A DNA stretch of 64,000 bases, taken from a virus. Positions 16,380-45,072 of the stretch are shown in pieces. How positions within the stretch are numbered: position 1 is the stretch's first letter; every line of letters starts with the position of its first letter. The notes beneath the pieces were generated by a model. That model searched no databases, had not been told where the DNA came from, and was given only the letters and a program-made list of their open reading frames with translations. The stretch is taken from positions 1 to 64,000 of the IMG/VR virus record IMGVR_UViG_3300042923_000307; one strand, given 5' to 3'. A program made the translations under genes and the position numbers.

Positions 16380-16421
16380 ATCTTTTGCACCTCACAATAA
16401 TAAAGAGTAGTTATTCTACTC

Positions 16422-16434
16422 CCTATTATACCTA
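16422..16434 (-). promoter_or_regulatory. class B promoter
   Basis: TAGGTATAATAGG on the minus strand, about 45 bases ahead of the 637-aa fibre gene and just beyond the stop of the 718-aa fibre gene. Confidence 0.7.
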
Positions 16435-16439
16435 ATTTA

Positions 16440-18596
16440 TTATACTATTTCATTATAATGCGCCGTTAGTCTAATAGTCGAAGAAGCAGCTGATGTATTT
16501 GACGCGCTTATAACTCTTGTGGATTCGTTTATAGTAATACCAATGCTATCTGAGATATGTGTACCGTTTACCCACATAGCTGAAGCAACTATGGTGTTTA
16601 AGTCCGCGTTAGATGGAAGAGTTAAACTTAGCGTACTTCCAGTATCTACAGTGCCAGAGTTAGTTATTGTCTTAATAGACCCTGCTGTAATTGTACTTAC
16701 GGAACCTTCTAGGGCTGTTAAACGTGTTCCGTGACCAGTAATAGAACCTTCTGCTGTTGTTAAACGTGTTCCGTGACCAGTAATAGAACCTTCTGCTGTT
16801 GTTAGGCGAGTACCCAAATTATTAATTTGAGGTTGAGTAACAGCTTCAGAGGCAACTACAGCTTTATCGGTGTACTCTGTAGTAGCTATATTAGTTGAGT
16901 TATCTTTAGGAGTGGCTGTATTTGTTTTTGTTGGGAGCATAGTCCTCACAGTGTTTCTCATATCTACGACAGATACTATCCCTGTGCTGTCCGTCACAAC
17001 TTTGTGCAGACGTATACAATCTTCACTTACGGCAGGAGCAGCGGCCCCATTAGGAACACTTCTAAGTACAATTTCCCCGTCAACAGTAACGTCCTCATAT
17101 AAATCAGCAGATGTAAGTGGGGTACATGTCCATGAGTCACTCGCACTGTACGCCATAGTCTCAGAACTTATAAAGTAAACTGTAAGACCATCAATAACAG
17201 GGTGCTCTGACGAGAATACTCCGTCTTCTTGAACAACTCCATTCTTACTTAACGTGTACGTAAAATCTGATGCTCCAGGTTCTGAGTCAGGAGAATTTAC
17301 TACAATGGTATAAACATCAGAAGGCAATCCCGTAAACTCACCTAGGAAGTAAGGGTATCGTGCAGCGGGTGTTGCGCCTATACCTGTAACATTTAGGCTC
17401 TTATACGTAAGCAGCATATTATCAGATGTTTGGTCAAGACTGATAGTTTTTTCACCAAAGTATATAACACCCTCTTCCTTCTCAGCTTCAAATGACTTAG
17501 GTGAGGGGACAGCTAGAGTTAGGCCGCTTCCAACAAAACTTTCATAGAAATGTCGGTACATCATAGCACCTTCACTGGCGTTAGCATTAATACCTTGAGG
17601 GCCTTGCGCGCCTTTTACACCCTGGATACCTTGTATACCCTGAATACCCTGAGGTCCTTGTGGTCCTATAGCACCCTGTGGTCCTACTGGTCCTCTCTCT
17701 CCTACTGGTCCTATGGGTCCAATTGGCCCCTGCATAAGAGATAGCCCGTCTATATCACCAGTTACGTGTCTGTGCCCTGTGTTAGACTTGTCATTTAATG
17801 CTGTGCCTAAACCATTAATTTCAGGTACATCGTGTCCATGAGGTTTAGGTGTTCTAGAGTCTGATAGCCTAGCGTCGCTATTAGTTACGAACTTATTTGT
17901 AGCACCAGGATTGCCGTTAGTTCCTGCTAAAGCTGCAGCCATACTCTCAGACAGAGACGAACCAGACGCAATATTAAGCTCTATTTTACCATTAACAATA
18001 GTTGGGTAAACATTACCAGAAGATAATATCTCAATAACGCCACCCCATGTTGAGGGGCTCACAGAGTTAGCTCCAACCTTAATACTGCCTATTGGCTTAA
18101 TTGTGTCACTCATAAAGTCTAGCTTTTTTTTATCGTTAGAGTCGAATAACCCTGACTTTATTGCTGTGGCTAAACCTGGCTTACCATCTATGTTGTTCCA
18201 ATTAACCTGGGAACCACCTGCTGTCTTAAGTTCGTCTTTAGTATAAACATTTCCATCCAATGTATTAGCTAGCTGAATAAGTTTATTAATTACCTCAGCA
18301 TCAACCCTAGACGCTATTGGTACGTACGTAATTGATACCACAGCGTTGGACTTTGATACATTGAATGTTACCAGACCTTTAGCATTTACGTAATCGTATT
18401 GGTCTCTCCATTCTATTAGTACCTCGTTTACTCCTGGAGAACCAGATGTTATAACGTTATAACCGCCAGCTACTACAAGGGTATCCTTTTTAGGTATGTA
18501 AGTTAAGTACTGACTACCAGTAGAGTCCAACGTTAAAGACTCTGTAAGGGTCGCAGTCCTAGTTGGGTCTATATTATAAAGCATTGGTAGATTCAC
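16440..18596 (-). CDS. collagen-like tail-fibre protein, 718 aa
   Basis: GTG 18596 follows AAAGGTGG. After a 290-residue baseplate-like N part comes a Gly-X-Y run ([19 protein letters not shown] and [18 protein letters not shown]), about residues 286-337, which should form a trimeric collagen-like shaft. The C part contains repeated [14 protein letters not shown] units, likely a coiled coil, and a beta-rich tip. This design is common in phage fibres for Gram-positive hosts. It heads the fibre and lysis operon. Confidence 0.87.
16717..16800 (-). repeat. 42-bp tandem direct repeat in fibre gene
   Basis: Two nearly identical 42-bp units start at 16717 and 16759 and code [14 protein letters not shown]. 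Such repeats can change the fibre length by recombination. Confidence 0.85.
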
Positions 18597-19508: not shown

Positions 19509-20000
19509 ATGCGCGGTATGAAGGTTATTGAATTTTACCTGTCAGCAAAAGCAAAGCATCCCGACATAGATGATTGGTTGGCTGAAAGCGTAGTAGCAGA
19601 GTATGGCTACGATAGCCTAGATGCTATACAAGCTATTAGAGCATGCTTTGTTACAGACTTACCCTGGGAAGAGTTTAGGGTATTTGAAAAGGTAGTTCTA
19701 GTACTTAACGATAGACTTGTATTCGGCGAAATAGTACAAGACTTAGATATAAAAGAAATAGCATATGCGGTTAGCATTCTAAAAGGAATGTTCCCTGAGA
19801 ATATGTTTAACGACGAGATATCTAAGTATATAGCCATAGAGGCAACACAGGAAGGTTTTATAGTACTCCCTGAGGAGCTAGAGTTCGCACAGAGGTTCAT
19901 ACCAGTTAGTTACCTAACTAGAGAGCAGGAACAGGTTCAAATGGCATACCTACAAGAGGTTGCGGACTACAAGAAAATGGCAGATGGGAGTGACTTTTAA
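19509..20000 (+). CDS. hypothetical late-operon protein, 163 aa
   Basis: ATG 19509 is eight bases after AAGGAG; an in-frame GTG at 19500 overlaps the ribosome site. The protein is helical and acidic (LVFGEIVQDLDIKEIAYAVS) and unrecognised. Its stop overlaps the portal start by one base, so it is translated with the portal. Confidence 0.75.
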   Translation: MRGMKVIEFYLSAKAKHPDIDDWLAESVVAEYGYDSLDAIQAIRACFVTDLPWEEFRVFEKVVLVLNDRLVFGEIVQDLDIKEIAYAVSILKGMFPENMFNDEISKYIAIEATQEGFIVLPEELEFAQRFIPVSYLTREQEQVQMAYLQEVADYKKMADGSDF

Positions 20001-21706
20001 TGAGTCTTTACATGGATAGCTCTGGGTACGTAGATGGAGGCACTATACTTAACGATAGGCAGTTTTCCAATCTTATGGACGGTAGGTGGAGGTCAATATA
20101 CCCTGCTCCGTTCTTCGACCCTATAGCAATGCAAACAATAGCTGACCCTAAGGTTCTTATTCAGTGGAGTAGATTCTTCTACGACTGGCACCCAATAGTG
20201 CACGCAGCTATAAATAAAATGGTATCCTACCCTATTACGGACTTCGTATTTGACACTAAGGACGATAAAATACGTAAGAACTATGAGATGGTGTTCCAAA
20301 CACTAAACGTAAGAAGTCTTATGATAAAGGCGGGCTTAGACTACTTCATATGCGGTAATGCTTATATATCATTTATAATGCCTTTTAAGCGTATGTTTAA
20401 ATGCCCATCCTGCGGTTACACATCATCAGCGGAGACATCAACTATAAAAGCTAGCATGTCTAAGCTTACGATGGTTTGTAACAAATGCAATGAGTCTGTA
20501 GAACCTCAAGTAGAGGACGCAAACACTCAAGATGTACGCGACATGAAGGCTGTTCTTTGGAATCCTATGAACATGCAGATAGACTACGATGAGGTTCTGG
20601 ATAACTACGATTACTTCTATAGTCTACCTAACTATGTTAAGAGTGGTATACTAAAAGGTGAGAAAAAGTATATAGCAAAGTATCCAATGTACTTTATTAA
20701 AGCAGCACATGAGAAGAAACTTATACGTTTTTATTCTGACAAGTTGTTACACATTAGACGGGAAACACACTCTGCTACGTACCATAAAGGTCTAGGTCAA
20801 CCATTAACAACGGCTGTACTCAAACCGCTTTTCCATTTACTAGTACTTATGAGAGCTCAGGACGCCTTGGCTATAGACCAAATATTGCCATGGACTATTA
20901 TGTCGCCTGCACCTAATGCTGGCACAGACCCTGCTGGAGACATGGACTTAGGTGGTTGGAAAGACCAGGTTAAGAAGGAGTACGAGGAGTGGAAAAAGAA
21001 TCCTCTTCGTAAAAGCTTCATGCCCGTACCTATCAATGCCCAAATGATTGGTGCCCAAGGTAAAGCGCTTATGCTTACACCAGAAATTGATGCCATTACA
21101 AACCAGATACTAGCAGGTATGGGTGTACCTAATGAGTTCGTATATGGTGGTTTACAATGGAGTGGCGCTAGTGTATCATTAAGAATGCTTGAGAACCAAT
21201 TCATAAACTACCGTACAATGATGCAGCGCATGCTTGACTGGATAGTAGAACAGATAGCGACATACTTCGGTTACCCGCCTATAACAGTGAAAATGCAGAA
21301 CTTCAAAATGGCTGATGATATCGCTCAGAAACAGCTTATCATAGGTCTAGCTCAGACCCAAGATATATCTAAACAGTCTATGCTTCTTGAAGTTATGCCT
21401 GACTTAGATTACTCACTAGAGCGTGACAAAATTAAGGAAGAGCAAATAGAAGCACTTAAAATGCAAGCTGATATACAGCGCGCTCAGATGGCAGGAGGCT
21501 TATCTCCTAATCCTATGACTGCTATCGGTGGAATGCAACCACAAATGGGTGGTATGCAGCAGATGGGCGGTCAACCAGGACAACAGCCAGGCCAACAAAT
21601 AGGTGGACCACAGGAAGCTGCACCACCTACAGGAGGGCCAGCAGTAGCCCCAGCGTTGCCCGAGCAGAAACCTCCGAGAGCACAAGGCGCTAATCAGCAA
21701 ATCTAG
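20000..21706 (+). CDS. portal protein, 568 aa
   Basis: The N-terminal part fits a myovirus portal (WSRFFYDWHPIVHAAINKMV, then YPITDFVFD), and the core has PLFHLLVLMRAQDALAIDQI and the GMGVPNEFVYGG segment found in many portals. Two CxxC pairs (CPSC near 135 and CNKC near 160) form a zinc-ribbon-like insertion. The C-terminal 60 residues are Gln/Gly/Pro-rich (GGMQQMGGQPGQQPGQQ). The portal is the ring through which DNA is packed. Terminase lies 9 kb downstream, so head genes are dispersed. Confidence 0.82.
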   Translation: MSLYMDSSGYVDGGTILNDRQFSNLMDGRWRSIYPAPFFDPIAMQTIADPKVLIQWSRFFYDWHPIVHAAINKMVSYPITDFVFDTKDDKIRKNYEMVFQTLNVRSLMIKAGLDYFICGNAYISFIMPFKRMFKCPSCGYTSSAETSTIKASMSKLTMVCNKCNESVEPQVEDANTQDVRDMKAVLWNPMNMQIDYDEVLDNYDYFYSLPNYVKSGILKGEKKYIAKYPMYFIKAAHEKKLIRFYSDKLLHIRRETHSATYHKGLGQPLTTAVLKPLFHLLVLMRAQDALAIDQILPWTIMSPAPNAGTDPAGDMDLGGWKDQVKKEYEEWKKNPLRKSFMPVPINAQMIGAQGKALMLTPEIDAITNQILAGMGVPNEFVYGGLQWSGASVSLRMLENQFINYRTMMQRMLDWIVEQIATYFGYPPITVKMQNFKMADDIAQKQLIIGLAQTQDISKQSMLLEVMPDLDYSLERDKIKEEQIEALKMQADIQRAQMAGGLSPNPMTAIGGMQPQMGGMQQMGGQPGQQPGQQIGGPQEAAPPTGGPAVAPALPEQKPPRAQGANQQI

Positions 21707-21717
21707 GAGGACACAAC

Positions 21718-22011
21718 ATGAATACAGAAATAAGGGATACACTAGATAAATTAGCTTGGTTAGAACTTTATACACCTCTCGATGGTACAACTAAGCGTCT
21801 AGCCGAGAAATTGATAAGACGTACTGTGCGTCATCAGGTTGCACCAAAGGATAATGCCAAGTCTAATCCACTAATTAATACACCGCGTACCACTCCTCCT
21901 ATTAAAATGCCTGAGTTTAGTCAACATAAACCCCATGAGGCTGGAGTACCTGCGGCACAAAGTTTTGAACATAAGGTAGCATCGTATAAAGCTACATACG
22001 AAAGGAGCTAA
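21718..22011 (+). CDS. small hypothetical protein, 97 aa
   Basis: CTAGGAGG precedes the ATG. The first 40 residues are helical and basic (KRLAEKLIRRTVRH); the rest is Pro-rich and probably disordered. It sits between the portal and the polymerase gene. Function unknown. Confidence 0.7.
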   Translation: MNTEIRDTLDKLAWLELYTPLDGTTKRLAEKLIRRTVRHQVAPKDNAKSNPLINTPRTTPPIKMPEFSQHKPHEAGVPAAQSFEHKVASYKATYERS

Positions 22012-22015
22012 CACC

Positions 22016-25000
22016 ATGTATCTTGATATGCACGAGAAGTGGGACGTTATCAAAAGACACGTAACAGATGGTATACGGTCACTATTCCCTATAGAAGTTC
22101 CAAAAGGTAGAGTAGAGCTTATAAGCGTTGAAATGAAAGAGCCTGAAAACCTCGTATCAAGTCAGCGTGAAGCTTTGATAAAGGGCGGTAGTTTAACCGC
22201 CTCTGTTTATGGTACGTTCAGGTTAACTGACGGTCACGGAGGTACAGTTGATACTGCTAAGATAAAAATACTTGATTTACCTCTGATAACACACCGAGGA
22301 ACATTCGTAGTTCAGGGTAAGGACTATAGTGTATTCAATCAGATGCGTTTGCGCCCAGGAGTTTACACTACGAAGTCAGAGGAATCTGGTGACGTAACAT
22401 CACGTTTCAACTTAGGTAAAGGTCTAGGTTTCAAAATAGAACTTAGCCCTAATGAGGGTATATTTTACGTACGTTTTGATAAGTCTAAAGCTAGTACAAG
22501 TAGCCCTAAGATTCCGTTGTATTCACTAGTTCGCGTATTAGGAGCCGCTGACTCAGACATTAAAGCTAGATGGGGAGAACGAATCTATAATGCTAACCAC
22601 GATAAGTCTCACATAATAGAAGACGCACGTAAAATAGTTGACTTAACAGTATACGGGGCTAAGCGTACAGGTAATGATGTTGAGGACATACGTAACTATT
22701 TCAATGATACACAGCTTAACGGCGATACAACTAAAGTAACGCTAGGTAGCTCTTACGACAGGGTACAGGCTGGCGCATTACTTGATGCTACGGCTAAGAT
22801 GGTACATGTTTATAGTGGCGCTGAACATGAAGACGATATGGATAGCTTGCTGTTCAAGGAAATCTTATCTGTTGAAGACCACCTTATGCTACGTATACAG
22901 AAAGGTATTAAAGACACAGGTGTACTTACTAAGATTAAACGTAAGATAGGTGAGGAAAAAGAGCTTCGTAAGATTATCCCTACGAATATGCTTACCAAAC
23001 TGATTGAAACGTTCTATACTACGTCGTCTCTTGCGTCACCACAAACAGAGATTAACCCTATCGAGATTCTGGAAACAAACCATAAGATTACCGCTATGGG
23101 TGAAGGTGGTATTAAGAGTGAGCACGGTATACCTATGTCTGCCCGTAACTTACATCCATCGCACTTTGGATTCTTAGACCCTGTTCGTACAACAGAGTCA
23201 ACTCGAGTTGGTGTCGACTTACGTACGACACATAACTCAGAGGTAAAAAACCGAAACATATACACCACTTTCATAGACCGTAAAGGTGCCAAAGTATCAC
23301 TAAGACCTATTGACTTGAGTGGCAAAACGATAGGGTTCCCTGGTCAAGAAGGTCATAAGATAGTAAGAGTCTTGCTTAACGGTGAAATGAAAGAGGTTCC
23401 AGCAGCGTCGGTAGACTATTGGATGGAGAAGTCCAAGGATATGTTTACGTACACCTCTAACCTAGTTCCATTTCTACACAACGACCAAGGTAACCGTGTA
23501 ACTATGGCTTCACGTATGGTTACGCAAGCAGTTCCTCTGGTACATAGAGAGGCCCCACTGGTTCAGGTTGAAGACGAGAGTGAGCACGGAACATTCCAGA
23601 AAAGATTAGGTACAGAGTTCTTCTCACCTAAAGCACCAGAAGATGGTACGGTTAACGAGATAGGTGAAGGCTTCATTCGTATAAATAATAGAAAAGTAGA
23701 CCTTTATCATAACTTCCCACTTAACGAAAAGACATACATTCACATGACACCTTTGTTTAAAGTAGGAGACAAAGTAAAGAAAGGACAAATAGTAGCTGAA
23801 TCCAACTTCACTAAAGACGGAACACTAGCTATTGGTACTAACCTCCGTACAGCTTACATAGGGTATAAAGGTTGGAATCATGAGGATGGTATGGTAATTA
23901 GTCAACACGCAGCTACTAAGTTAACATCTCAGCATATGTACGTTAAGGAAGTTGAGAAGAGTGACGACGTAACTGTAGACAAAAACCGTCTAATCAAGTT
24001 CTTCCCATCCAAGATAACAGCAGAACAAATGCGTAAACTGGATGATGAAGGTGTAGCTCAGAAGGGTCAGACAATACACAAGGGTGACTATGTAATCGCA
24101 GCTTTAGCTAAGCGTGACCTTACAAACTCTGACATGATGTTATCCAAACTACGCGGAGCATTAGCTAACCCCTATAAAGACGTATCGGAAGTTTGGGACC
24201 ATGATAGACCAGGGACTGTAACAGACGTTATACGTAATGGTAACTTAGTCAGAGTAATACTTACCACAGAAGATGAAACTCGTGTAGGTGATAAACTTAC
24301 AGGTGTTCACGGTAATAAAGGTACAGTAACACTTATACTACCTAACCACGAAATGCCTAAGGATAAAGACGGAAAACATATTGACATGCTATGGAATACA
24401 GCTGGGGTTATATCCCGTGTTAATCCTGGTCAGCTTTATGAAGCTATGGCAGGTAAGATTGCTGCTAAGACAGGTTCTCCTTATATTGTTAAAAATTTCT
24501 CCCCTGAGGATAGTAGTCGTAAAGTTATTAATGAGCTTAAAGCCCACGGTTTAAAACCAGAAGAGGACCTATACGACGCTAAAACAGGACGCCATTTAGG
24601 TGAGGTATTCGTCGGAAATCCACACGTTCTTAAGTTACATAAGCAAACAGAGGGTAACTTCGCTGCTCGTTTCACTAAGAACTACGACGTTAACTTGCAG
24701 CCTGCTAAAGGCGGTGAGGAAGGTTCTAAAGCTATAGGTCTACAAGATGTGTATGCTTTACTAGGACACAACGCTAGAGCAAACCTACACGAAATGGGAG
24801 CATACAAGTCTCAACGTAATGAGGAGTTCTGGGATTCGGTACGTATAGGGTTACCAATACCACCAGCAAAAGAACCGTTTGCGTTTGAGAAGTTTAAATC
24901 GTTAATTGGTGCTGCTGGTATCCACGTTAACAAAGGTAAAGACGCGTATACTATAGCTCCTATGAGCGACAAGCACATAGTACACCAATCTGCTGGTGAA

Positions 25001-26143
25001 ATAAAGTCTAGCGCTTTATTAGCTAGTAGCATGAACTCTGTAAAAGTTGAACCAGGTGGTCTATTCGATGAGTCTGTAACAGGTGGTTTAAAAGGTAAAA
25101 ATTGGGCTCATATGGAACTATCTGAGCACATTATAAACCCACTATTTGGTAACGTAGTAAAGACTATGCTTGGTGGTACAGACCCTTATGAAATGAAACC
25201 ATCAGATGTAAAGGCACAACTAGCTAAAATAGATGTTGATAAACGTATAGCTGAAATTCGCTCAGCTCTTGGTAGTACTAAAGGTAGTCCTCGAGATAAA
25301 CTACTTAAAGAGCTACGGTACTTAATGGCAGCTAAGAAACTAGGTATGCACCCAAAAGACTACGTACTGTCTAAGTTCCCAATACTACCACCACAATTCA
25401 GACCTGTTTACCCATCACAGTCAGGCGGTGTGCCGATGGTATCCGATATTAACTATCTATACCGTGATATGATGAACGTAAACAATGAATTGTCTAAACT
25501 TAAAGACTTCCCAGAGACTGACCCTACAAAGCTTAAGCTACGTAAAGACTTACAGCAGGCCGCAGGTGCTATCGTAGGCGTAATGAAACCTGTTAATAAG
25601 AAGAGCGAGAAGCAAGACCTTCAAGGTGTTGTACCACTCTTAACAGGAGGTAAACTTGATGGAGGCGGTACTTCAAAAGAGAGCTTCTTCCACCGTAAGT
25701 TAATGAAGCGTAACCAGGATTTAACAGGTCGTGGTACGATTCTACCAGACCCTAGTTTGCACGTTGACTACGCTAAGATACCTATAGACATGGCGCACCA
25801 GTTATTCAAACCATTCGTAATTAATAACTTGGTTAAAAAGGGCCTAACACCTATCCAGGCAGCTAAAGACGTAGCCGACAGAACACACATAGCATCTAGG
25901 GCGTTAGAGGAAGAGATGGAACGCAGACCAATACTATTAAACCGTGCCCCAACTCTTCACAAGTACAACATGATGGCATTTAAACCTGTAGCCGTAGAAG
26001 GCAAGTCTATATTCATACCACCTCTAATTATCAAAGGGTTCAACGCCGACTTTGATGGTGATAGTGTCGCAGGTGATACGTACGTTATTGTACAAGACAC
26101 TGACGGAACAGTACGCTTGGTGAAAATAAAAGACGTTGAATAG
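22016..26143 (+). CDS. RNA polymerase beta-beta' fusion, N-terminal part, ending in N-intein, 1375 aa
   Basis: One polypeptide covers beta and the first part of beta'. Beta blocks include VVQGKDYSVFNQMRLRPGVY, GYKGWNHEDGMVISQ near residue 620, and RVGDKLTGVHGNKGTV near 760. Beta' blocks begin near residue 1030 (WAHMELSEHI), then LPPQFRPVYPSQSGG, LNRAPTLHKYNMMAFKP, and the Mg-binding NADFDGD at 1343-1349. There the extein stops: the last 26 residues are an N-intein. Beta-beta' fusion is known in some bacteria, and phages carry divergent multisubunit polymerases, but alone this chain lacks the trigger loop and bridge helix. The start follows AAGGAGC, two genes after the portal. Confidence 0.95.
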   Translation: MYLDMHEKWDVIKRHVTDGIRSLFPIEVPKGRVELISVEMKEPENLVSSQREALIKGGSLTASVYGTFRLTDGHGGTVDTAKIKILDLPLITHRGTFVVQGKDYSVFNQMRLRPGVYTTKSEESGDVTSRFNLGKGLGFKIELSPNEGIFYVRFDKSKASTSSPKIPLYSLVRVLGAADSDIKARWGERIYNANHDKSHIIEDARKIVDLTVYGAKRTGNDVEDIRNYFNDTQLNGDTTKVTLGSSYDRVQAGALLDATAKMVHVYSGAEHEDDMDSLLFKEILSVEDHLMLRIQKGIKDTGVLTKIKRKIGEEKELRKIIPTNMLTKLIETFYTTSSLASPQTEINPIEILETNHKITAMGEGGIKSEHGIPMSARNLHPSHFGFLDPVRTTESTRVGVDLRTTHNSEVKNRNIYTTFIDRKGAKVSLRPIDLSGKTIGFPGQEGHKIVRVLLNGEMKEVPAASVDYWMEKSKDMFTYTSNLVPFLHNDQGNRVTMASRMVTQAVPLVHREAPLVQVEDESEHGTFQKRLGTEFFSPKAPEDGTVNEIGEGFIRINNRKVDLYHNFPLNEKTYIHMTPLFKVGDKVKKGQIVAESNFTKDGTLAIGTNLRTAYIGYKGWNHEDGMVISQHAATKLTSQHMYVKEVEKSDDVTVDKNRLIKFFPSKITAEQMRKLDDEGVAQKGQTIHKGDYVIAALAKRDLTNSDMMLSKLRGALANPYKDVSEVWDHDRPGTVTDVIRNGNLVRVILTTEDETRVGDKLTGVHGNKGTVTLILPNHEMPKDKDGKHIDMLWNTAGVISRVNPGQLYEAMAGKIAAKTGSPYIVKNFSPEDSSRKVINELKAHGLKPEEDLYDAKTGRHLGEVFVGNPHVLKLHKQTEGNFAARFTKNYDVNLQPAKGGEEGSKAIGLQDVYALLGHNARANLHEMGAYKSQRNEEFWDSVRIGLPIPPAKEPFAFEKFKSLIGAAGIHVNKGKDAYTIAPMSDKHIVHQSAGEIKSSALLASSMNSVKVEPGGLFDESVTGGLKGKNWAHMELSEHIINPLFGNVVKTMLGGTDPYEMKPSDVKAQLAKIDVDKRIAEIRSALGSTKGSPRDKLLKELRYLMAAKKLGMHPKDYVLSKFPILPPQFRPVYPSQSGGVPMVSDINYLYRDMMNVNNELSKLKDFPETDPTKLKLRKDLQQAAGAIVGVMKPVNKKSEKQDLQGVVPLLTGGKLDGGGTSKESFFHRKLMKRNQDLTGRGTILPDPSLHVDYAKIPIDMAHQLFKPFVINNLVKKGLTPIQAAKDVADRTHIASRALEEEMERRPILLNRAPTLHKYNMMAFKPVAVEGKSIFIPPLIIKGFNADFDGDSVAGDTYVIVQDTDGTVRLVKIKDVE
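26063..26143 (+). other. N-intein fragment of a split intein (26 residues)
   Basis: Directly after NADFDGD, the sequence SVAGDTYVIVQDTDG matches intein block A, with Ser as first nucleophile and the GDT core. It ends 26 residues later at a TAG followed by a terminator, so the short piece is by design rather than a cloning or reading error. Joined with the 230-residue C part at 1132-1821 it gives a complete intein with blocks A, B, F and G. Confidence 0.88.
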
Positions 26144-30696: not shown

Positions 30697-30716
30697 ACGT
30701 GTTAGGAGTTGATACT

Positions 30717-32363
30717 ATGTTAATTGCACCACCTAAGAAAAAAACGGTGAGCATTACTAGGGCTGATTACGCACAGAGCATACTATGGCTAGATGGTAAA
30801 CCATTTAGTGTAGCTGCTGTGCCATACATGATACCAATTATTAATTGTGATACAGAGAAGACTATCTTAATGACAGGTCGTCAGGTAGGTAAGTCCACAA
30901 CGTTGTCCGCTACAATACTAACCGAGCAGACAGCTATACCACATTATCGTACATTATACGTAGCACCTCGTGGTGACCAGGTGTCACAGTTCTCAGGTGA
31001 CCGTTTAGCCCATATGATTACCCACTCACCTATGATTCAGAAGTATTACGTTAGTAGTAAAGTAGTACAGCAGTCACACGCCAAAGGGTTTACAAATGGT
31101 AGCATGACATTCCTACGCTCTTGTTACCACACAGCGGATGGTATCCGTGGTATATCAGCTAACAGCATATTCATCGATGAGGTTCAAGATATTATACTTG
31201 ATAACATACCAGTTATTGAAGAGTGTGCTGCCCGTAAAAACCCTAAGCGTATGATATTCTGTGGAACACCTAAGACATTTGATAATGCTATACAAAAGTT
31301 ATGGGAGCAGTCAACACAGCATTACTGGGCGTTAAAATGTACGCACTGTGGTTTCTGGAATGTTCCTATACAGTTTGAAAACCTAAGTAAAGAGTTTTTA
31401 TGCTGCTCTAAATGTAAAGGTCAGTTAAACGCTGTAGAAGGAGAATACGTTGCTAAACACCCTGACCGTGATTTCGTAGGATTCCATATATCACAGGCTA
31501 TGGTTGCGGGCGTACCAGGAACTAATGTACCGTGGAGCAGGTTATATGAAAAAGTAGAGAACCCATTGTACGGTATTGGTAAGATGTACAATGAGTGCTT
31601 AGGATTCTCTTACGACAGTGGTAGTAAATTACTTACAGAGTCGGATATTCGTAAGTGCTGTGACCCTGATATGAATGTTCTTACTACGGATAGAAGAGCA
31701 GAGTGGGGTATGCAGTCTGTGTGCGCTGGTGTTGACTGGGGTGTACTAGGCGGTAACACACATACTGTTGTTACTATTGGGGGCATAGACAAGGATTTAA
31801 AACTTCGTGTTATATACTCGCAAAAATTCCCCGTTGACCAAAACCCTACAGAACAGGTAGATGAAATAGCTGGTATAATAAATAAAGCTGGCGTTTCCGT
31901 TGTAGCAGCTGACCGTGGAGGGGGTGTTTACGCAAACGCCTTTCTCAGAAAGAAGCTAGCGTATGCATCCCTACATGAAATAGAGTATAAAGCCAAGGTA
32001 AACGCTGGTATGCAGTACAACGCACAAGCAAGGTCGTGGATGACAGACCGTACTAGAGCTATGGCTGGTGTTATAATTGATATTAAGAGTGAGCGTATGG
32101 CGCTACCACGTTTTGAGGTAATGTCCGCGAATGATTTTAATACAGATTTGCTAACGCTATCATGTGAGTACAATGAACGTATACGCGCTTTCCAAATTAT
32201 ACGCGACATAAATACCCCAGATGATTTCGCCCATACACTCGTTTATCTCCGTATAGCAGCTAAATGTATAGCTCCATCCCCACGGGCAATAGTGCACGAA
32301 TTAGAGGAGTTTATGCCACCACCAGGAATGTTAATAGAGGACGACAATATGCCACCCTACTAG
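30717..32363 (+). CDS. terminase large subunit, 548 aa
   Basis: ATG 30717 follows TTAGGAG. The ATPase part has Walker A TGRQVGKST (about residues 52-60) and Walker B FIDEVQD (about 152). A Cys4 zinc module (CTHCGFW and CSKCKG) lies in the middle. The RNase H-like nuclease has its first Asp in CAGVDWGVLGG and another acidic block VVAADRGGG. The enzyme cuts concatemers and pumps DNA through the portal. No small subunit was recognised next to it. It is separated from the portal by 9 kb. Confidence 0.92.
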   Translation: MLIAPPKKKTVSITRADYAQSILWLDGKPFSVAAVPYMIPIINCDTEKTILMTGRQVGKSTTLSATILTEQTAIPHYRTLYVAPRGDQVSQFSGDRLAHMITHSPMIQKYYVSSKVVQQSHAKGFTNGSMTFLRSCYHTADGIRGISANSIFIDEVQDIILDNIPVIEECAARKNPKRMIFCGTPKTFDNAIQKLWEQSTQHYWALKCTHCGFWNVPIQFENLSKEFLCCSKCKGQLNAVEGEYVAKHPDRDFVGFHISQAMVAGVPGTNVPWSRLYEKVENPLYGIGKMYNECLGFSYDSGSKLLTESDIRKCCDPDMNVLTTDRRAEWGMQSVCAGVDWGVLGGNTHTVVTIGGIDKDLKLRVIYSQKFPVDQNPTEQVDEIAGIINKAGVSVVAADRGGGVYANAFLRKKLAYASLHEIEYKAKVNAGMQYNAQARSWMTDRTRAMAGVIIDIKSERMALPRFEVMSANDFNTDLLTLSCEYNERIRAFQIIRDINTPDDFAHTLVYLRIAAKCIAPSPRAIVHELEEFMPPPGMLIEDDNMPPY

Positions 32364-32376
32364 GGTGGTCTTTTTT
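32352..32376 (+). terminator. intrinsic terminator
   Basis: CCACCC, TACTA, GGGTGG then TCTTTTTTG; the stem overlaps the end of terminase. Confidence 0.8.
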
Positions 32377-32403
32377 GTTATAAGTACTATGATGGAGGTG
32401 TTT

Positions 32404-32733
32404 ATGGTGGAAACTCTTGTTATTAAAAACACAATACGCGGAGGTAAAAACATTGAGCACTTTGGTGATATTATAGTACTTGGTGATGTTTACCCAGGCA
32501 CAGAGGTACGTGCTGGCGGTAATATCGTAGTTATGGGTTGTGCTCAAGGTACCCTAATAGCAGGAACAGTAACAGGTGATGCAGCGATTATCACCGTTGG
32601 AAGGTTCCAGTGTCCTCATATAAAGATAGGTAAATTCTCAGCAAGGCAAGAGACAATCAACCCTAGGGGCGCAGAGTACCTAGCCGTTGAGAAAGGTCAA
32701 CTAATATCTAAAGTTATAAAAACCCAAAGTTAA
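32404..32733 (+). CDS. minC: MinC C-terminal-domain protein, 109 aa
   Basis: The whole protein matches the beta-helix C-terminal domain of the division inhibitor MinC: IRGGKNIEHFGDIIVLGDV, YPGTEVRAGGNIVVMG, then GTLIAGTVTGD and IKIGKFSA. In cells this domain dimerises, binds MinD through an RSGQ-like motif (here RGGK) and touches the FtsZ tail. The N-terminal FtsZ-inhibiting domain of full MinC (about 220 aa) is missing. ATG 32404 follows ATGGAGGTG. It sits 15 bases before MinD, as in bacterial minCD, but in a phage genome behind terminase. Confidence 0.87.
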   Translation: MVETLVIKNTIRGGKNIEHFGDIIVLGDVYPGTEVRAGGNIVVMGCAQGTLIAGTVTGDAAIITVGRFQCPHIKIGKFSARQETINPRGAEYLAVEKGQLISKVIKTQS

Positions 32734-32748
32734 TAGGAGGTTAGAGGG

Positions 32749-33537
32749 ATGGGAGAGGCAATAGTAGTAACGAGTGGTAAAGGCGGGGTGGGTAAAACTA
32801 CAACAACCGCAAACCTCGGTGTAGCCCTGGCAGCAATGAATAAAAGGGTCGCACTGGTAGACACAGACATCGGGTTACGCAATTTGGACATAGTTCTTGG
32901 GTTAGAGAACAGAATAGTATTTGACCTAGTAAACGTTGCGCGACAGGAATGCGACGTACGTACTGCATTAATTAAGGACAAGCGTTACCCTAATCTACAG
33001 TTGTTGGCGGCAAGCCAGTCTAGAGACAAAGAAGATGTAAAACCCTACGATGTGCAGTTAGTCATTCAGGAACTGGTTAAAGACTTCGACTATGTACTTG
33101 TGGACTGCCCCGCTGGAGTTGATAGGGGATTCCGTAATGCTACCGCAGGTGTTACATCGGCGTTAGTTATAACTACCCCTGAGATACCATCAGTGCGCGA
33201 CGCTGATAGGGCGATAGCTATGCTTGAGGACTTACATATAAAGCCTAGAATTATTGTAAATAAGATAAGACCTAGTATGGTTAAGTCTGGTGATATGTTA
33301 GAACTAAATGGTATAATGGATATATTGATGGCAGAGCTTATAGGATTGATACCTGACGATGATGCTATTATAGCGTCTACTAATAAAATGGCCCCAAGTG
33401 TAGCTCGTGTACCTGGCTCAAACGCAGCTGTAGCGTATAGAAACATAGCTAGAAGAGTTACAGGGGAACAAGTACCCTTTATGGAAATTAAGCCTCTTCC
33501 ACTCTTCGAACGTCTTAGACGGGCGGTCAGTGGTTAA
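32749..33537 (+). CDS. minD: MinD septum-site ATPase, 262 aa
   Basis: The deviant Walker A GKGGVGKTTTTANLG lies at residues 10-24, followed by VALVDTDIGLRNLDIVLGLE, which is the MinD rather than ParA signature, then YVLVDCPAGVDRGF and TTPEIPSVRDADR. The last residues (PLFERLRRAVSG) can form the amphipathic membrane-targeting helix of MinD. The length is the family's normal 260-270. With the MinC-like protein it could build a membrane-bound division inhibitor, or the pair may position phage structures. AGGAGG precedes the ATG. Confidence 0.93.
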   Translation: MGEAIVVTSGKGGVGKTTTTANLGVALAAMNKRVALVDTDIGLRNLDIVLGLENRIVFDLVNVARQECDVRTALIKDKRYPNLQLLAASQSRDKEDVKPYDVQLVIQELVKDFDYVLVDCPAGVDRGFRNATAGVTSALVITTPEIPSVRDADRAIAMLEDLHIKPRIIVNKIRPSMVKSGDMLELNGIMDILMAELIGLIPDDDAIIASTNKMAPSVARVPGSNAAVAYRNIARRVTGEQVPFMEIKPLPLFERLRRAVSG

Positions 33538-33540
33538 TTT

Positions 33541-33562
33541 GGGACGTAAAGTCCCGCTTTTT
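33541..33562 (+). terminator. intrinsic terminator
   Basis: GGGAC, GTAAA, GTCCC then GCTTTTT right after minD. Confidence 0.82.
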
Positions 33563-33564
33563 AT

Positions 33565-33604
33565 CAAAAATTGACCAATAAATTTGGTATATGTATAGTG
33601 TAGG
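33565..33604 (+). promoter_or_regulatory. class A promoter
   Basis: CAAAAATTGACC, 8 bases, TGGTATATG (33585-33593), then GTGTAGG. Confidence 0.75.
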
Positions 33605-34558: not shown

Positions 34559-35155
34559 ATGCTTTGTATTAACCTAACCAGTATCAGAGACAACAAGCCT
34601 ATAATACTAAATAATAAGCTGGCGGCCCACAGATTATACTTAGGCAGCAGTGACGTACCTAGTTTCCCGAATAGACTAGTTTTTAGCGTCACAGCAGATG
34701 AATTAGCACGACTATCTGCACAACTACAAGAACTTGAGGTAGACTGGGTAACAGAGGAACTAGCAGCACTGGAAAGAGTACCAGTGTTTTTGGTTATTCC
34801 CTTTGCACTACGAGTTCAAGAAGAGGCGTTTACTAGCTTCCGTGAGAGGTCTTCAGCGGTGACAGAATCACAGCTAAACCTAAACCTAGGCCAACCTTCA
34901 ATATTTATAAGGGGCTCACAATTCCCCATAATATGCACAGCGTGCGAACGGCAAGAGGAGTTAAAAGGTAGAAGATGCCCAGATTATGTAGAGGATAATT
35001 ATGGGTGCTTCAAGACATCGAGGTTCGCGCTAGACGCTATGGACACATTCTACTTAACAGAGAAAGGGGAGCTAGTTTATAATGCTACATCAATCAGTGC
35101 ACCACCAGAACAACAAGTGGAAAGTGACGCAAGTACCGCAACCATCGTCGCCTAA
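34559..35155 (+). CDS. hypothetical protein, 198 aa
   Basis: AAAGGAGGA precedes the ATG. The protein is soluble with helices (ADELARLSAQLQELEVDW) and a Cys-containing part (ICTACERQEELKGRRCPDY, GCFKTSRFALDAMDTFYLT) that could bind metal. It overlaps the RT gene by 74 bases, so the two are tightly linked. Not recognised. Confidence 0.72.
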   Translation: MLCINLTSIRDNKPIILNNKLAAHRLYLGSSDVPSFPNRLVFSVTADELARLSAQLQELEVDWVTEELAALERVPVFLVIPFALRVQEEAFTSFRERSSAVTESQLNLNLGQPSIFIRGSQFPIICTACERQEELKGRRCPDYVEDNYGCFKTSRFALDAMDTFYLTEKGELVYNATSISAPPEQQVESDASTATIVA

Positions 35156-36296
35156 TCATGACCTACCCGTACTATTAGACGAGTATAACCTATGCAACCT
35201 ATTGGGGTACAATGGTAAGTATCCTTGGTACGTAGTGCACAATGCGGCAGAGTGCTACCAAACATTCTGGATAGACAAAGATACAAAATGCGTAGTAAGC
35301 GAGTACAATGAGGACCTTAACTTACGAGAAATATCAGCCCCTAATGGTTCATTAAAAACACTGCAAGGAAGACTAGCGGGTCTTGTGCTAAGTAAGCTTC
35401 CTAAGCACGATTGTAACTACGCCTATATGTCAGGAAGAAATGTACGTCAGGCCGCTGATACTCAGGTAGACGGTGATGTATTAATTCGTATAGACCTAAA
35501 GGATTTCTTTACACATCACTACGAACCTTATGTTCGTGCTAAACTTCATGAGCTTACTGGGTATAGTAAAGAGATGTGCTGGTTTATTACTAAGTTATGC
35601 TCACTCAGAGGCAGCCTACCACAAGGCGCTGTTACGTCTCCTGTTCTGTCTGTTGTTCTAAATTACGATATGGATGTTAGAATATCTGATATTGCAGCAG
35701 CACACAATTTAGTGTATACTAGATATGCGGACGATTTATGCTTTAGTGGTTCCGATAGAAACGATGCGCACCTTCACTCTTTTATCAACGAAGTATCACA
35801 TGCAGTACACCCGTTCCGTGTAAACTGGAAGAAAGTTGATATTATGCGGAATAGTGCTAGAAGCTTCGTTTGCGGTATTGAAGTACGCGGAGTTACCCCT
35901 GAAATGGAGTTTAACCTTATTGAGGAAAATGGTTTTAAGGTTAAACGCACAGCATCAAAACTTATGTACACTACATCTAAGCCAGTTGCGGATGATGTGA
36001 TAACTTCCATATCTAACAGTATATTAAGCACCAATGCTAATGTAACAGTACGACCCAAGAGGTTTTATATGCAGAGTATTAAGCGTATGCTTGGTATGCA
36101 TTTAACTGACGGTATAAACTACCCTCGTGATAAGTATAAGAAGATGCGTGTAGAGGCAATGTTAGTATCCAAAGGAGCAACAAACGTAAATGTTGCACGG
36201 TTTAAAGGTCGGCTAGCATTTATGCGACTAGTAGACCCTGATAAGGCAAATAAGATTGATGAAATAATTAATAAACACAGGAGGGTGGCCCAATGA
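35082..36296 (+). CDS. retron-type reverse transcriptase, 404 aa
   Basis: RT motifs are in order: RNVRQAADTQVDGD, VLIRIDLKDFF (first Asp), GSLPQGAVTSPVLS near residue 178, the catalytic RYADDLCFSG (YADD at 215-218), then a region-Y-like NSARSFVCGIEVRG. The LPQG motif and the short length without a maturase domain favour retron-like RTs over diversity-generating ones, which have an SQ motif. Start ATG 35082 follows AAAGGGGAGC inside the preceding gene. A giant structured RNA lies 540 bases downstream. Which RNA it copies is unknown. Confidence 0.88.
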   Translation: MLHQSVHHQNNKWKVTQVPQPSSPNHDLPVLLDEYNLCNLLGYNGKYPWYVVHNAAECYQTFWIDKDTKCVVSEYNEDLNLREISAPNGSLKTLQGRLAGLVLSKLPKHDCNYAYMSGRNVRQAADTQVDGDVLIRIDLKDFFTHHYEPYVRAKLHELTGYSKEMCWFITKLCSLRGSLPQGAVTSPVLSVVLNYDMDVRISDIAAAHNLVYTRYADDLCFSGSDRNDAHLHSFINEVSHAVHPFRVNWKKVDIMRNSARSFVCGIEVRGVTPEMEFNLIEENGFKVKRTASKLMYTTSKPVADDVITSISNSILSTNANVTVRPKRFYMQSIKRMLGMHLTDGINYPRDKYKKMRVEAMLVSKGATNVNVARFKGRLAFMRLVDPDKANKIDEIINKHRRVAQ

Positions 36297-41894: not shown

Positions 41895-42278
41895 ATGAGT
41901 AACAAATTTATAAATGCTCAGTATTCAACAAATAATGTGGATGTAGGTGTATACACAATTAAGACAGACGAAAAAGTAGCTGCGAGACCAGTAGTGGCAC
42001 TAATGATACCTAGAATGGAAGGTAATTATAATAAAGGTTTATTTGAGTGCGCAGTAAACACTCTGTCAGACGCAGCCTCTGCCTTACGATATAACAAAAA
42101 GGGTTACGAGTCTAACCAGACGGAGCATGGTATAGACGAGGACCTTCAACGTATTGTTAAGACTATGACTGCGACATTACAATACATTGTTAACTCTACT
42201 TCATGGCGTACAGGTGAGTACCACGTTTTTGATAGAGCTGAAATTGAAAATAGACTTAGGGGGTTGTCACATGGATAA
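41895..42278 (+). CDS. hypothetical protein, 127 aa
   Basis: TAGGAGG precedes the ATG. Soluble, mixed composition (VGVYTIKTDEKVAARPVVAL, LFECAVNTLSDAASALRYN). Not recognised. The last eight bases overlap the NMN adenylyltransferase gene, so it heads the NAD-salvage run. Confidence 0.7.
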   Translation: MSNKFINAQYSTNNVDVGVYTIKTDEKVAARPVVALMIPRMEGNYNKGLFECAVNTLSDAASALRYNKKGYESNQTEHGIDEDLQRIVKTMTATLQYIVNSTSWRTGEYHVFDRAEIENRLRGLSHG

Positions 42279-43362
42279 CGTAACTACTGATGAAACCGCA
42301 TATGTAGATAAGAAGTACAAGTGGGCTGTTTATATGGGGAGGTTTCAACCATTCCATGATGGTCATATGAATGTACTCAATGAGGCATTTAAGGTAGCAG
42401 AAAAGGTTATACTTCTTATAGGTGGACAAGATAAGGCACGGCAGGTTAAGAACCCTTGGACTTACTTCGAAAGAATGACTATGGTACTAAACTCCGTTCC
42501 GTACGAATATACAGAAAACTTATTCGTAGCAGGAATACACGACCATCCGTATAGTGATACAGATTGGGCGTCGGAGGTTAGGTCTATAGTCAAGTACAAC
42601 ACAGAAGAAGAAGACTCTATAGCTCTTGTCGGTCATCAAAAGGATGCTAGCTCATACTACCTAGGGTTGTTTCCTGACTGGGAATACGTAGAAGTTGGTA
42701 ACTACAAGAATATTGATGCTACAACTATTCGCGATATATACTTTAATCATGGTCATGTAAATATGGTAACATGCGTACCTAACGGAACAGCGGCTATAAT
42801 GACTAGGTTCTTAAGCACTTCGACTTATTCACACCTAGTAGAGGAGTTTAAGTTCTTAAAGCAGCATAAGGCTGCGTGGTCAGGTACGCCATTTCCTAAT
42901 GTGTTCGTAACAGTAGATATCGCTGCTATATGCGACGATAGAATACTGCTTATTAAACGTGGTGGTCAACCTGGTAAAGGGTTAACGGCTCTACCTGGTG
43001 GTTATATAGATGTAAACGAACGTATCGTAGAATCAGCTCGTAGGGAGTTAGAAGAAGAAACTACAATGCACTTCTCACCTGGAGCATTCGAACAACATTG
43101 TATAGCTAACAAGGTGTTTGACCACCCACAGCGTTCTCAGATTGGTAGAGGTATAACACATCTATTTGTGCTTGACCTTGACGACACATCTGCTAACTTA
43201 TACGCAACAGCAGCTGACGATGCAGCTAGTCTATCATGGATACCACTATACGAATTGGAGCAGAGACGCTCCCTATTCAGTGGCGACCACTACTACATGG
43301 CACTATACGCTAAAGAGCAGTACTACAAGAATAAAGTCAAGGAGGCTACAATATGCGATTAG
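42271..43362 (+). CDS. nadM: NMN adenylyltransferase-Nudix fusion, 363 aa
   Basis: ATG 42271 follows TAGGGGG. The N-terminal half has the nucleotidyltransferase motif YMGRFQPFHDGHMNV and the later INIDATTIRD-type ISSTxxR region (NIDATTIRDIYF), as in NadM. The C-terminal half has a full Nudix box (GGYIDVNERIVE then RRELEEET). Such fusions make NAD from NMN and ATP and clear ADP-ribose or related compounds. With the nicotinamide phosphoribosyltransferase downstream it forms a two-step NAD salvage route. Confidence 0.92.
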   Translation: MDNVTTDETAYVDKKYKWAVYMGRFQPFHDGHMNVLNEAFKVAEKVILLIGGQDKARQVKNPWTYFERMTMVLNSVPYEYTENLFVAGIHDHPYSDTDWASEVRSIVKYNTEEEDSIALVGHQKDASSYYLGLFPDWEYVEVGNYKNIDATTIRDIYFNHGHVNMVTCVPNGTAAIMTRFLSTSTYSHLVEEFKFLKQHKAAWSGTPFPNVFVTVDIAAICDDRILLIKRGGQPGKGLTALPGGYIDVNERIVESARRELEEETTMHFSPGAFEQHCIANKVFDHPQRSQIGRGITHLFVLDLDDTSANLYATAADDAASLSWIPLYELEQRRSLFSGDHYYMALYAKEQYYKNKVKEATICD

Positions 43363-43682
43363 AGGTAATGACGTCACTTATTAACCAAATAATGGATATG
43401 GACAACAGAAGTATAGAGCAGCGTGTGATTAAGACTGGTGAGGAATATGGTGAAATGTGCGAAGCTGTATGCTCTGCGACTGGTGCCATAGGTTGTGGTT
43501 ATAAGGGAAAGACAATGGACGATGTAGTAGAGGAATCATGGGATACAATAATCTGCGCATTATCTGTAGCTTTACAGGCTAAACCTGATATGACTCCTAA
43601 AGAACATAAGGAAGTTTTCATGCGTAAGTTAATTAAATGGGAACAAAAAGTAAAAGAAGGGCAGGCGGTTAATAATGCATAA
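43353..43682 (+). CDS. MazG-like nucleotide pyrophosphohydrolase, 109 aa
   Basis: ATG 43353 follows AAGGAGG inside the previous gene. The MazG metal-binding pattern is visible as KTGEEYGEMCEAV (ExxE) and VVEESWDTIICAL (ExxD). These enzymes hydrolyse nucleoside triphosphates to monophosphates, and phage forms may act on dNTPs or on alarmone levels. It lies between the two NAD-salvage genes. Confidence 0.82.
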   Translation: MRLEVMTSLINQIMDMDNRSIEQRVIKTGEEYGEMCEAVCSATGAIGCGYKGKTMDDVVEESWDTIICALSVALQAKPDMTPKEHKEVFMRKLIKWEQKVKEGQAVNNA

Positions 43683-45072
43683 CTTATTTACAAATCTTAT
43701 TTTGAATACTGATAGTTACAAGGCGAGTCATTACCTACAGTACCCACCTATGGTAAGTGGGTTAATGAGCTACATCGAAGCTAGGGGTAATGGTCAACGT
43801 AAGACGACGTTCTTTGGTTTGCAGATGTTTCTCATTGAATACCTATCTAAACCTATAACTCAGGCTGATATAGATATAGCTGAGCCTATATTCTTAGCGC
43901 ATGGTGAACCTTTTAATCGCGCTGGATGGGAGTATATCCTTAATAAGCACAACGGTTATATGCCTGTACGTATAAAAGCAGTACCAGAAGGACGTAGAGT
44001 ACCTACAGGAAACGTCCTAGTTACTGTTGAGTCCACCGACCCTCACGTATTCTGGGTTGTTAACTACTTAGAGACTGCGCTGCTACGTGCCGTTTGGTAT
44101 CCAACAACTGTGTGCTCTATTAGTCGTGAAATCAAGGACTTGGTATCACAATTCTTACGTGATACATCAGAGAACACGGAGCCTGAAAGCCTGTTTAAGT
44201 TACATGATTTTGGTTCTCGTGGTGTAAGCAGCCGTGAAAGCGCTGGTATTGGGGGTATTTCCCACCTTGTAAACTTCATGGGTACAGACACCATTGAGGG
44301 GATTATTGCGGGTAAGGTATACTACGGATGCGATATGGCTGGGTTCTCAATTCCTGCGGCAGAGCACAGCACAATTACGTCATGGGGTAAATCTCACGAA
44401 GCCGACGCATACCGTAACATGGTTAAGCAGTTCGGTGGAAAAGGTAAACTCGTTGCGGTTGTTAGCGATAGCTACAACATATTCAATGCGTGTGAGCGTA
44501 TTTGGGGAGAAGAGTTGCGCCAAGAAGTTATCGATAGCGGCGCTACTGTTGTAGTTCGTCCAGATTCAGGAGACCCTGTAACTGTTGTCCTTAAATGTAC
44601 TGAAATTCTAGGAGATAAGTTCGGTTATACTACCAATGCTAAAGGTTACAAAGTACTAAAACATGTACGTGTTATCCAAGGTGATGGTATTGACAACCCT
44701 ATGATTTATGACATTCTATCCACGCTTAAACGTAATGGTTGGAGTGCGGAAAACGTAGCATTTGGTATGGGTGGCGCGTTACTACAACACCCTAACCGTG
44801 ATACTTACAGTTTCGCTATGAAATGCTGCGCCATCCGTAAAGATGGTGTTTGGCAGGATGTGTATAAAGACCCCGCTACTGACTCACGTAAGAAGTCCAA
44901 GGCAGGAAGAATTTCGCTGTACGAAGATGTAGATGGAGGTTTACACTCTGAAAAGATTGACACTGTTGAGGCAGTAGACCAGTTAACTGAGGTACTAGTA
45001 CCTGTATTTGAGAACGGTAAAATACTTAAGCTATATACCTTCGATGAGGTACGTAAAAACAGCCAAGCGTAA
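43675..45072 (+). CDS. nadV: nicotinamide phosphoribosyltransferase, 465 aa
   Basis: The protein is full length for the NAMPT/NadV family. Key blocks are LNTDSYKASHYLQYP at the start, FKLHDFGSRGVSS, the AAEHSTITSWG segment with the catalytic-site His region, VSDSYNIFNACE and VVVRPDSGDPV. It joins nicotinamide and PRPP to NMN, which the fusion enzyme coded upstream turns into NAD. It overlaps the MazG-like gene by eight bases. Phages use such pairs to restore NAD removed by host defence; that use here is inferred. Confidence 0.95.
   Translation: MHNLFTNLILNTDSYKASHYLQYPPMVSGLMSYIEARGNGQRKTTFFGLQMFLIEYLSKPITQADIDIAEPIFLAHGEPFNRAGWEYILNKHNGYMPVRIKAVPEGRRVPTGNVLVTVESTDPHVFWVVNYLETALLRAVWYPTTVCSISREIKDLVSQFLRDTSENTEPESLFKLHDFGSRGVSSRESAGIGGISHLVNFMGTDTIEGIIAGKVYYGCDMAGFSIPAAEHSTITSWGKSHEADAYRNMVKQFGGKGKLVAVVSDSYNIFNACERIWGEELRQEVIDSGATVVVRPDSGDPVTVVLKCTEILGDKFGYTTNAKGYKVLKHVRVIQGDGIDNPMIYDILSTLKRNGWSAENVAFGMGGALLQHPNRDTYSFAMKCCAIRKDGVWQDVYKDPATDSRKKSKAGRISLYEDVDGGLHSEKIDTVEAVDQLTEVLVPVFENGKILKLYTFDEVRKNSQA

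Follow-up and report, generated by a model that had tools for sequence, protein, structure and literature searches.

A phage genome fragment encodes the MinC C-terminal domain together with a complete MinD, a candidate inhibitor of host division

The stretch analysed here, hereafter the window, comprises the first 64,000 nucleotides of IMGVR_UViG_3300042923_000307, a linear virus record in IMG/VR, 69,662 bp long, that is a fragment of a genome. Two adjacent genes of the bacterial Min system lie in it, between a terminase and a reverse transcriptase. The features of the locus are the following.

30699..32363, plus strand: large subunit of the terminase, GpA-type, upstream neighbour of the pair (Pfam GpA_ATPase 1.6e-18, phrog_675 8e-62)
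32351..32379, plus strand: terminator-like hairpin followed by a T-run, between the terminase and minC (hairpin scan)
32404..32733, plus strand: gene for the C domain of MinC, 109 aa, GGAGG upstream
32749..33537, plus strand: minD gene, 262 aa, full-length bacterial MinD ATPase, AGGAGG upstream
33499..33534, plus strand: C-terminal amphipathic helix of MinD, putative membrane-targeting sequence, PLFERLRRAVSG
33540..33566, plus strand: terminator-like hairpin 3' of minD (hairpin scan)
35082..36296, plus strand: retron-type reverse transcriptase (RT), downstream neighbour (RVT_1; PADLOC RT_III-A)

The two min genes are on the same strand and their open reading frames (ORFs), both intact, are separated by 15 nt. 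A strong ribosome-binding (SD) site precedes each of them. The pair is thus an operon-spaced unit of two genes bracketed by terminator-like hairpins, in a region where the scan observed 10 such sites for 4.4 expected. The GC content is 0.42 for the minC gene and 0.45 for minD (0.30 and 0.37 at third positions), and the base composition of the pair is within or near the range of the other genes of the phage. A search of the window against Rfam returned zero matches, and the MinE profile PF03776 had no match within the 69.7-kb record, itself a fragment. The missing part of the phage genome may hold MinE, the N-terminal domain of MinC (MinC_N), or another partner.

The smaller protein carries the C-terminal beta-helix domain of MinC (MinC_C) alone. 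It matches Pfam MinC_C (PF03775) with 71 bits (8e-20, cutoff 33.2), and NCBIfam TIGR01222 (minC) with 74 bits. The latter alignment is limited to profile positions 120-205, and the score therefore falls below the full-length cutoff of 95. With phmmer the protein matches the PDB chain 4v02_C (1e-15). The AlphaFold model (pLDDT 93.4) was compared with known structures (VIA) and resembles the MinC chains of Aquifex (Z 21.3), Thermotoga (20.1), Escherichia coli (19.3), and Pseudomonas aeruginosa (18.1), the next structure beyond these four being at Z 5.8. These results bear out the domain assignment made in an initial annotation of this DNA. They also agree with its claim that the N-terminal domain is absent: the ORF begins at the C domain, 40 nt past the terminase stop at 32363, and the MinC_N model, which misses many Gram-positive MinC_N (PMC3618327), had zero matches in the 69.7-kb record. 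The MinD-binding loop reads RGGK in the phage where most MinC read RSGQ. Since cellular variants at this position include RGGT, RGGR, RGGQ, and RSGK, the phage loop falls within the natural range and counts as a kept MinD-binding motif, the binding itself being predicted.

The larger protein was said to be a complete MinD, and this is indeed the case: NCBIfam TIGR01968 (minD_bact) matches it with 337 bits (6e-101, cutoff 212.9), whereas the other NCBIfam families reach at most 192 bits and the ParA-type models about 50 bits. Similarly, the MinD chains of Aquifex, Pseudomonas, and E. coli in the PDB match with 183-217 bits (up to 1.7e-63), against at most 39 bits for Soj/ParA chains. The initial annotation had asked whether ParA might be the best match. 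With Soj/ParA more than 140 bits under MinD, the identity of a ParA/ParB partition ATPase is ruled out, and the ORFs that were subjected to profile searches included no ParB-like partner. The AlphaFold model has a pLDDT of 91.9. Judging from its residues, the phage MinD loses none of the standard catalytic positions: the deviant Walker A motif KGGVGKT is retained with its signature lysine (P-loop K11/K16), as are the switch aspartates D38, D40, and D119. The helix-7 motif R150-D151-x-D153-R154 (RDADR) is retained as well, on a face of MinD that is described as binding both MinC and MinE (PMC6803595). The phage residue aligned with E. coli S148 is a proline, as in a few further MinD sequences.

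The C-terminus of MinD is likely a membrane helix, in line with the tail proposed in the initial annotation, and we regard it as putative. The residues LFERLRRAV align with cellular MinD tails such as FSRLKKIMG, and a helix is predicted at residues 252-261 (local pLDDT 61-68). Its hydrophobic moment of 0.64 is close to the median of the MinD set (0.65), and is attained by 7% of shuffled sequences, which is why the assignment is likely rather than proven. Among 59 near-invariant columns of MinD, the phage protein deviates at 8, above every cellular MinD compared, and so keeps a fraction of 0.86 of these residues against a cellular minimum of 0.92. The changes are mostly conservative (Y58F, I124V, E125D, A135V, L168I, and R172K, together with G157A and G214M), G214M being a radical one. 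This level of retention, including the change at G214, suggests that the partners of the phage MinD may have changed.

The pair resides in a genuine phage genome. The record encodes a GpA-like terminase, portal, tail, baseplate, amidase, lysis, and sigma-like proteins, and a fused RNA polymerase, a chain of 1375 aa combining beta with part of beta'. The closest named phages by polymerase and terminase are Salmonella phage Arash and Vibrio phages D69, D148, and D181 (180-187 kb), and relatives of the polymerase are encoded at 41 loci of viral contigs. The nearest relative that we found is a contig of 146.6 kb, L131, whose polymerase and portal are 55% and 54% identical to those of the window phage and whose terminase is about 60% identical over its larger part. 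Arash, D69, and L131 belong to a clade of fused-polymerase phages of about 180 kb, many members of which are uncultivated. The order portal, small gene, fused polymerase (window 20000-26143) is kept in all three. Downstream, the terminase gene of the window phage is separated from the RT by minC_C-minD, then two small genes and a gene of 198 aa. In L131 the terminase is directly followed by a 206-aa gene and an RT, at the corresponding locus and 36% identical to that of the window phage, and minCD is lacking there. Synteny holds on either side of the pair. Hence, minCD is a cassette added in the lineage of the window phage.

Some other genes of these phages deserve mention. The 198-aa gene lies directly 5' of the RT (window 34559-36296), the same two-gene layout occurs in L131 (19557-21754), and a noncoding stretch precedes the arrangement in both phages. 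It is possible that the RT and its upstream gene form a retron carried by a large phage; the retron_St85_RT model matches the RT below its cutoff. The terminase of L131 is broken in its 5' part by in-frame stops (16297-18268), near an HNH-like gene, and maybe an intron or insertion is behind this break. In the window, a NAMPT gene (NCBIfam 632 bits) adjoins that of a nucleotidyltransferase-NUDIX protein (42187-45072), an NAD salvage pair which we take to resemble the counter-defence by which phages replenish NAD. Finally, adjacent JAB-like and ThiF/E1-like genes (5654-7794) resemble, below cutoffs, the proteins A and ThiF of the plasmid PRTRC system.

The initial annotation knew of no well-described phage minCD pair, and our searches of the literature, of INPHARED, and of viral sequences uphold this. 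The literature searched reports no phage-coded MinC-MinD pair. Neither MinC_C nor MinD was detectable in 33 whole or partial records of the fused-polymerase clade; cellular genomes served as positive controls for the MinC_C search, and the MinD search, with zero matches set-wide, relies on its query having detected the minD of the window itself. Scans of 2.9 million viral contigs with short peptide patterns, which can miss members and possibly omit records very near the window, revealed no second minC_C-minD pair. Scans of viral contigs for the single proteins showed no relative, and a further scan for MinC none. Among the viral structures of BFVD, no MinC_C-like protein was present at E <0.001, and three proteins of the ParA/MinD fold matched the phage MinD. 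To judge from searchable sources, the protein families are known ones and both their phage carrier and the trimmed form are undescribed before.

Several candidates for other phage MinD were considered and rejected. The alignment scans of viral contigs for MinD brought up only those of L088/L089, L090, and L152. In contigs L088 and L089 a prophage is joined to the minD of the host: its tail-gene module runs into minD at the P-loop codons (KGGVGKT; L088 8001-9031, L089 8001-8512), and in L088 minE comes after. The attachment site of the phage appears to lie inside minD in both contigs. The candidate of L090, a contig of 164 kb, is a distant MinD/FlhG-like ATPase, and that of L152 is an Mrp-like protein. 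In INPHARED, an Acinetobacter "phage" contig with minD is chromosomal, two contigs from the human gut have mreBCD-PBP2-rodA neighbours and are bacterial, and contig_26 of cyanophage AS-1 holds a minCDE whose MinD is about 70% identical to that of Betaproteobacteria. The INPHARED minD matches that were inspected, which cover some of the short gut contigs, are contaminating bacterial DNA. The phage-labelled records MT835478, MT835555, CAKLQH020000030, and DQ115833 hold plain bacterial chromosome around minD, and such mislabelling calls for caution in surveys of phage genes.

The closest cellular homologues are distant, with identities of at most 57-60% for MinD and 38% for MinC_C (24-38% across cellular MinC_C). 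The phage MinD has a long branch in the tree (1.2-1.3 changes per site) and is placed near Bacilli with weak support (85/75), and a position outside Bacillota stays unrejected by the AU test (p 0.32). In the joint tree of MinC and MinD the pair is without a supported neighbour. The phylogeny with cellular Min proteins that was proposed in the initial annotation thus yields no firm host lineage. The strong SD sites, together with a weak match to an XhlA-like gene in the record, give a hint of a host in Bacillota.

Having a C-only MinC beside MinD does not set this phage apart from cells: the arrangement is conserved in one order of Bacillota. In the genome L022, of Candidatus Avidehalobacter, a C-only MinC is followed by MinD and then MinE. 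MinC_C is present in 33 of the 35 genomes of this order, most of which have a short MinC open frame of around 120-170 codons, often along with a full-length MinC elsewhere. The C-only minC adjoins minD in all 14 short-MinC regions examined in the order, and there was no minD near the full-length second copy in any of the 4 stretches examined. The C-only MinC/MinD pairs of the order that the joint tree includes form one clade, with support 100, and the phage is outside of it. This indicates that MinC_N was probably dispensed with at least twice, in this order and in the phage, with MinC_C and MinD staying together. The recurrence of the arrangement throughout the order (loci L022 and L154-L167) suggests a natural MinC_C-MinD system.

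What could such a pair do in a phage? In MinC, the C-terminal domain forms the dimer, binds MinD, and binds the tail of FtsZ (PMC6771821). MinC_C with MinD blocks division of E. coli via this tail (Shiomi and Margolin 2007; Shen and Lutkenhaus 2009; PMC6803595, PMC3618327), an effect explicable by competition for the tail used by the anchors of FtsZ (PMC3618327). Overproduced MinC_C gives filamentation in E. coli only with MinD, and without MinE the MinCD complex spreads over the membrane and division is blocked everywhere (PMC6803595). The initial annotation had tied the inhibition of FtsZ to the absent N domain; the domain is indeed absent, but the E. coli results argue against a loss of all inhibitory activity. 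Phages are known to inhibit host division with lambda Kil (PMC3961180), T5 Hdi (PMC10714956), and P1 Icd (PMC11897509), and the prophage protein DicB works through MinC_C (PMC4967827).

Our preferred reading, to which we give a probability of roughly 45%, is that the pair is a phage-owned, cut-down Min inhibitor of host division that works without MinE. The phage MinD would bind ATP, dimerise, and sit on the inner membrane through its C-terminal helix. Its helix-7 face would then grip the RGGK loop of the MinC_C dimer, and the complex at the membrane would bind the FtsZ tail and block or displace division of the host. As no MinE was found in the record, the block would extend beyond the poles, unless MinE or MinJ of the host acts on the phage MinD. 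The simplest outcome would be a self-contained and spatially unrestricted brake on host division. As MinC_C/MinD alone blocks division in E. coli, the pair could act directly, without hijacking the MinC of the host. The parts retained by the phage seem to be those reported necessary, namely MinD and the functions of MinC_C in dimerisation and in binding MinD and the FtsZ tail. The reading is favoured further by the kept catalytic and interface residues, the MinC_C fold, the operon-like layout, and the parallel loss of MinC_N in the Bacillota order. During infection the pair would probably enable the phage to hold or misplace the division ring of its host, to its own putative benefit. On the other hand, the strong inhibitory domain, MinC_N, is missing, the known effect of MinC_C comes from overproduced protein in E. 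coli, and the phage MinD falls short of all cellular MinD compared in its near-invariant residues.

The same parts could serve another end. The phage proteins have a dimerisation surface and a MinD-binding loop, lack MinC_N, and use a MinD face that serves both MinC and MinE (PMC6803595). Hence, they might act as a dominant-negative decoy which mixes with MinC and MinD of the host and dilutes or repatterns the inhibitor bearing MinC_N. Division sites would then be shifted or freed, resulting in minicells or misplaced septa and not in a division block. We consider this unlikely, because an identity of 24-38% to cellular MinC_C makes mixed MinC dimers with the host doubtful and because the MinD that the phage supplies as well points to a self-contained complex. 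It is rather improbable that division is not the target at all and that MinD gradients, or copolymers of MinC_C and MinD, position phage DNA, replication, or assembly. Membrane filaments of alternating MinC and MinD dimers are built from MinC_C and MinD (4v02, 6riq; PMC6771821), MinDE patterns are able to move unrelated membrane molecules (PMC6803595), and the genomes of the relatives are large, about 180 kb. Yet, the pattern-making MinE was not found in the 69.7-kb record, the pair occurs in 0 of 33 related records and is hence outside the core cell biology of the clade, and the physiological role of the copolymer is disputed (PMC5548801). A variant of this idea is a long shot: copolymer filaments of MinC_C and MinD, formed without MinC_N or MinE, would organise replication or assembly of the phage while occupying FtsZ tails. 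If true, this would be a virus-coded Walker-A cytoskeleton in a role comparable to that of the tubulin-like PhuZ of nucleus-forming phages.

The pair could also be passenger cargo, captured from a host and retained for little or no function. It is lineage-specific, as expected of cargo, being missing from L131 at the corresponding locus. However, the long branch of MinD is accompanied by intact ORFs, kept catalytic and interface residues, phage-like composition, and strong SD sites, which argues against a recent or decaying capture and leaves cargo improbable. Bacterial contamination, or an artefact of assembly, was the cause of every INPHARED minD match inspected. Here we think it very improbable, since an independent phage contig carries orthologues of the flanking phage genes in identical order, the pair has no chromosomal mre/rodA or minE neighbours, its MinC is C-only, its composition is phage-like, and the closest cellular MinD is only 57-60% identical.

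The known routes of phages to division arrest rely on small unrelated peptides or on DicB, which borrows the MinC of the host. A phage that carries a regulator of the host division site, cut down to the half which attaches to the membrane and to FtsZ, would be a new route. Moreover, the pair would offer a natural experiment on the question, argued from overexpression in E. coli, whether MinC_C and MinD suffice to control FtsZ, and the separate losses of MinC_N in the Bacillota order and in the phage make this sufficiency directly testable.

Compared with MinC/MinD of bacteria (E. coli, Bacillus subtilis, Aquifex aeolicus), the phage pair has in common a MinD equivalog, a MinC_C domain, the order minC-minD, the ATPase core, the contact residues between MinC and MinD, and a putative membrane tail. 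It differs in being phage-coded, without MinC_N, on a long branch, and apart from mre/rod genes; in contrast to MinCDE systems, no MinE was found in the fragment. The operons of the Candidatus Avidehalobacter order share the MinC cut to its C domain and the MinD directly after it, but they are cellular, form a separate and well-supported clade, and in L022 have MinE next. The ParA ATPases of phages and plasmids (phrog_164) belong to the same deviant Walker-A superfamily, from which the phage MinD stands out with 50 bits for ParA models against 337 for MinD. With lambda Kil, T5 Hdi, P1 Icd, and the inhibitors of SPO1 and T7, the likely shared outcome is a block of host division, although these are small proteins and none is a Min homologue. 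The proposed role comes closest to that of DicB, from the Qin/Kim prophage, in that division would be inhibited via the C domain of MinC. Yet, the DicB protein, which is small and unrelated, takes the role of MinD in recruiting the MinC of the host, whereas the phage supplies its own MinC_C and MinD.
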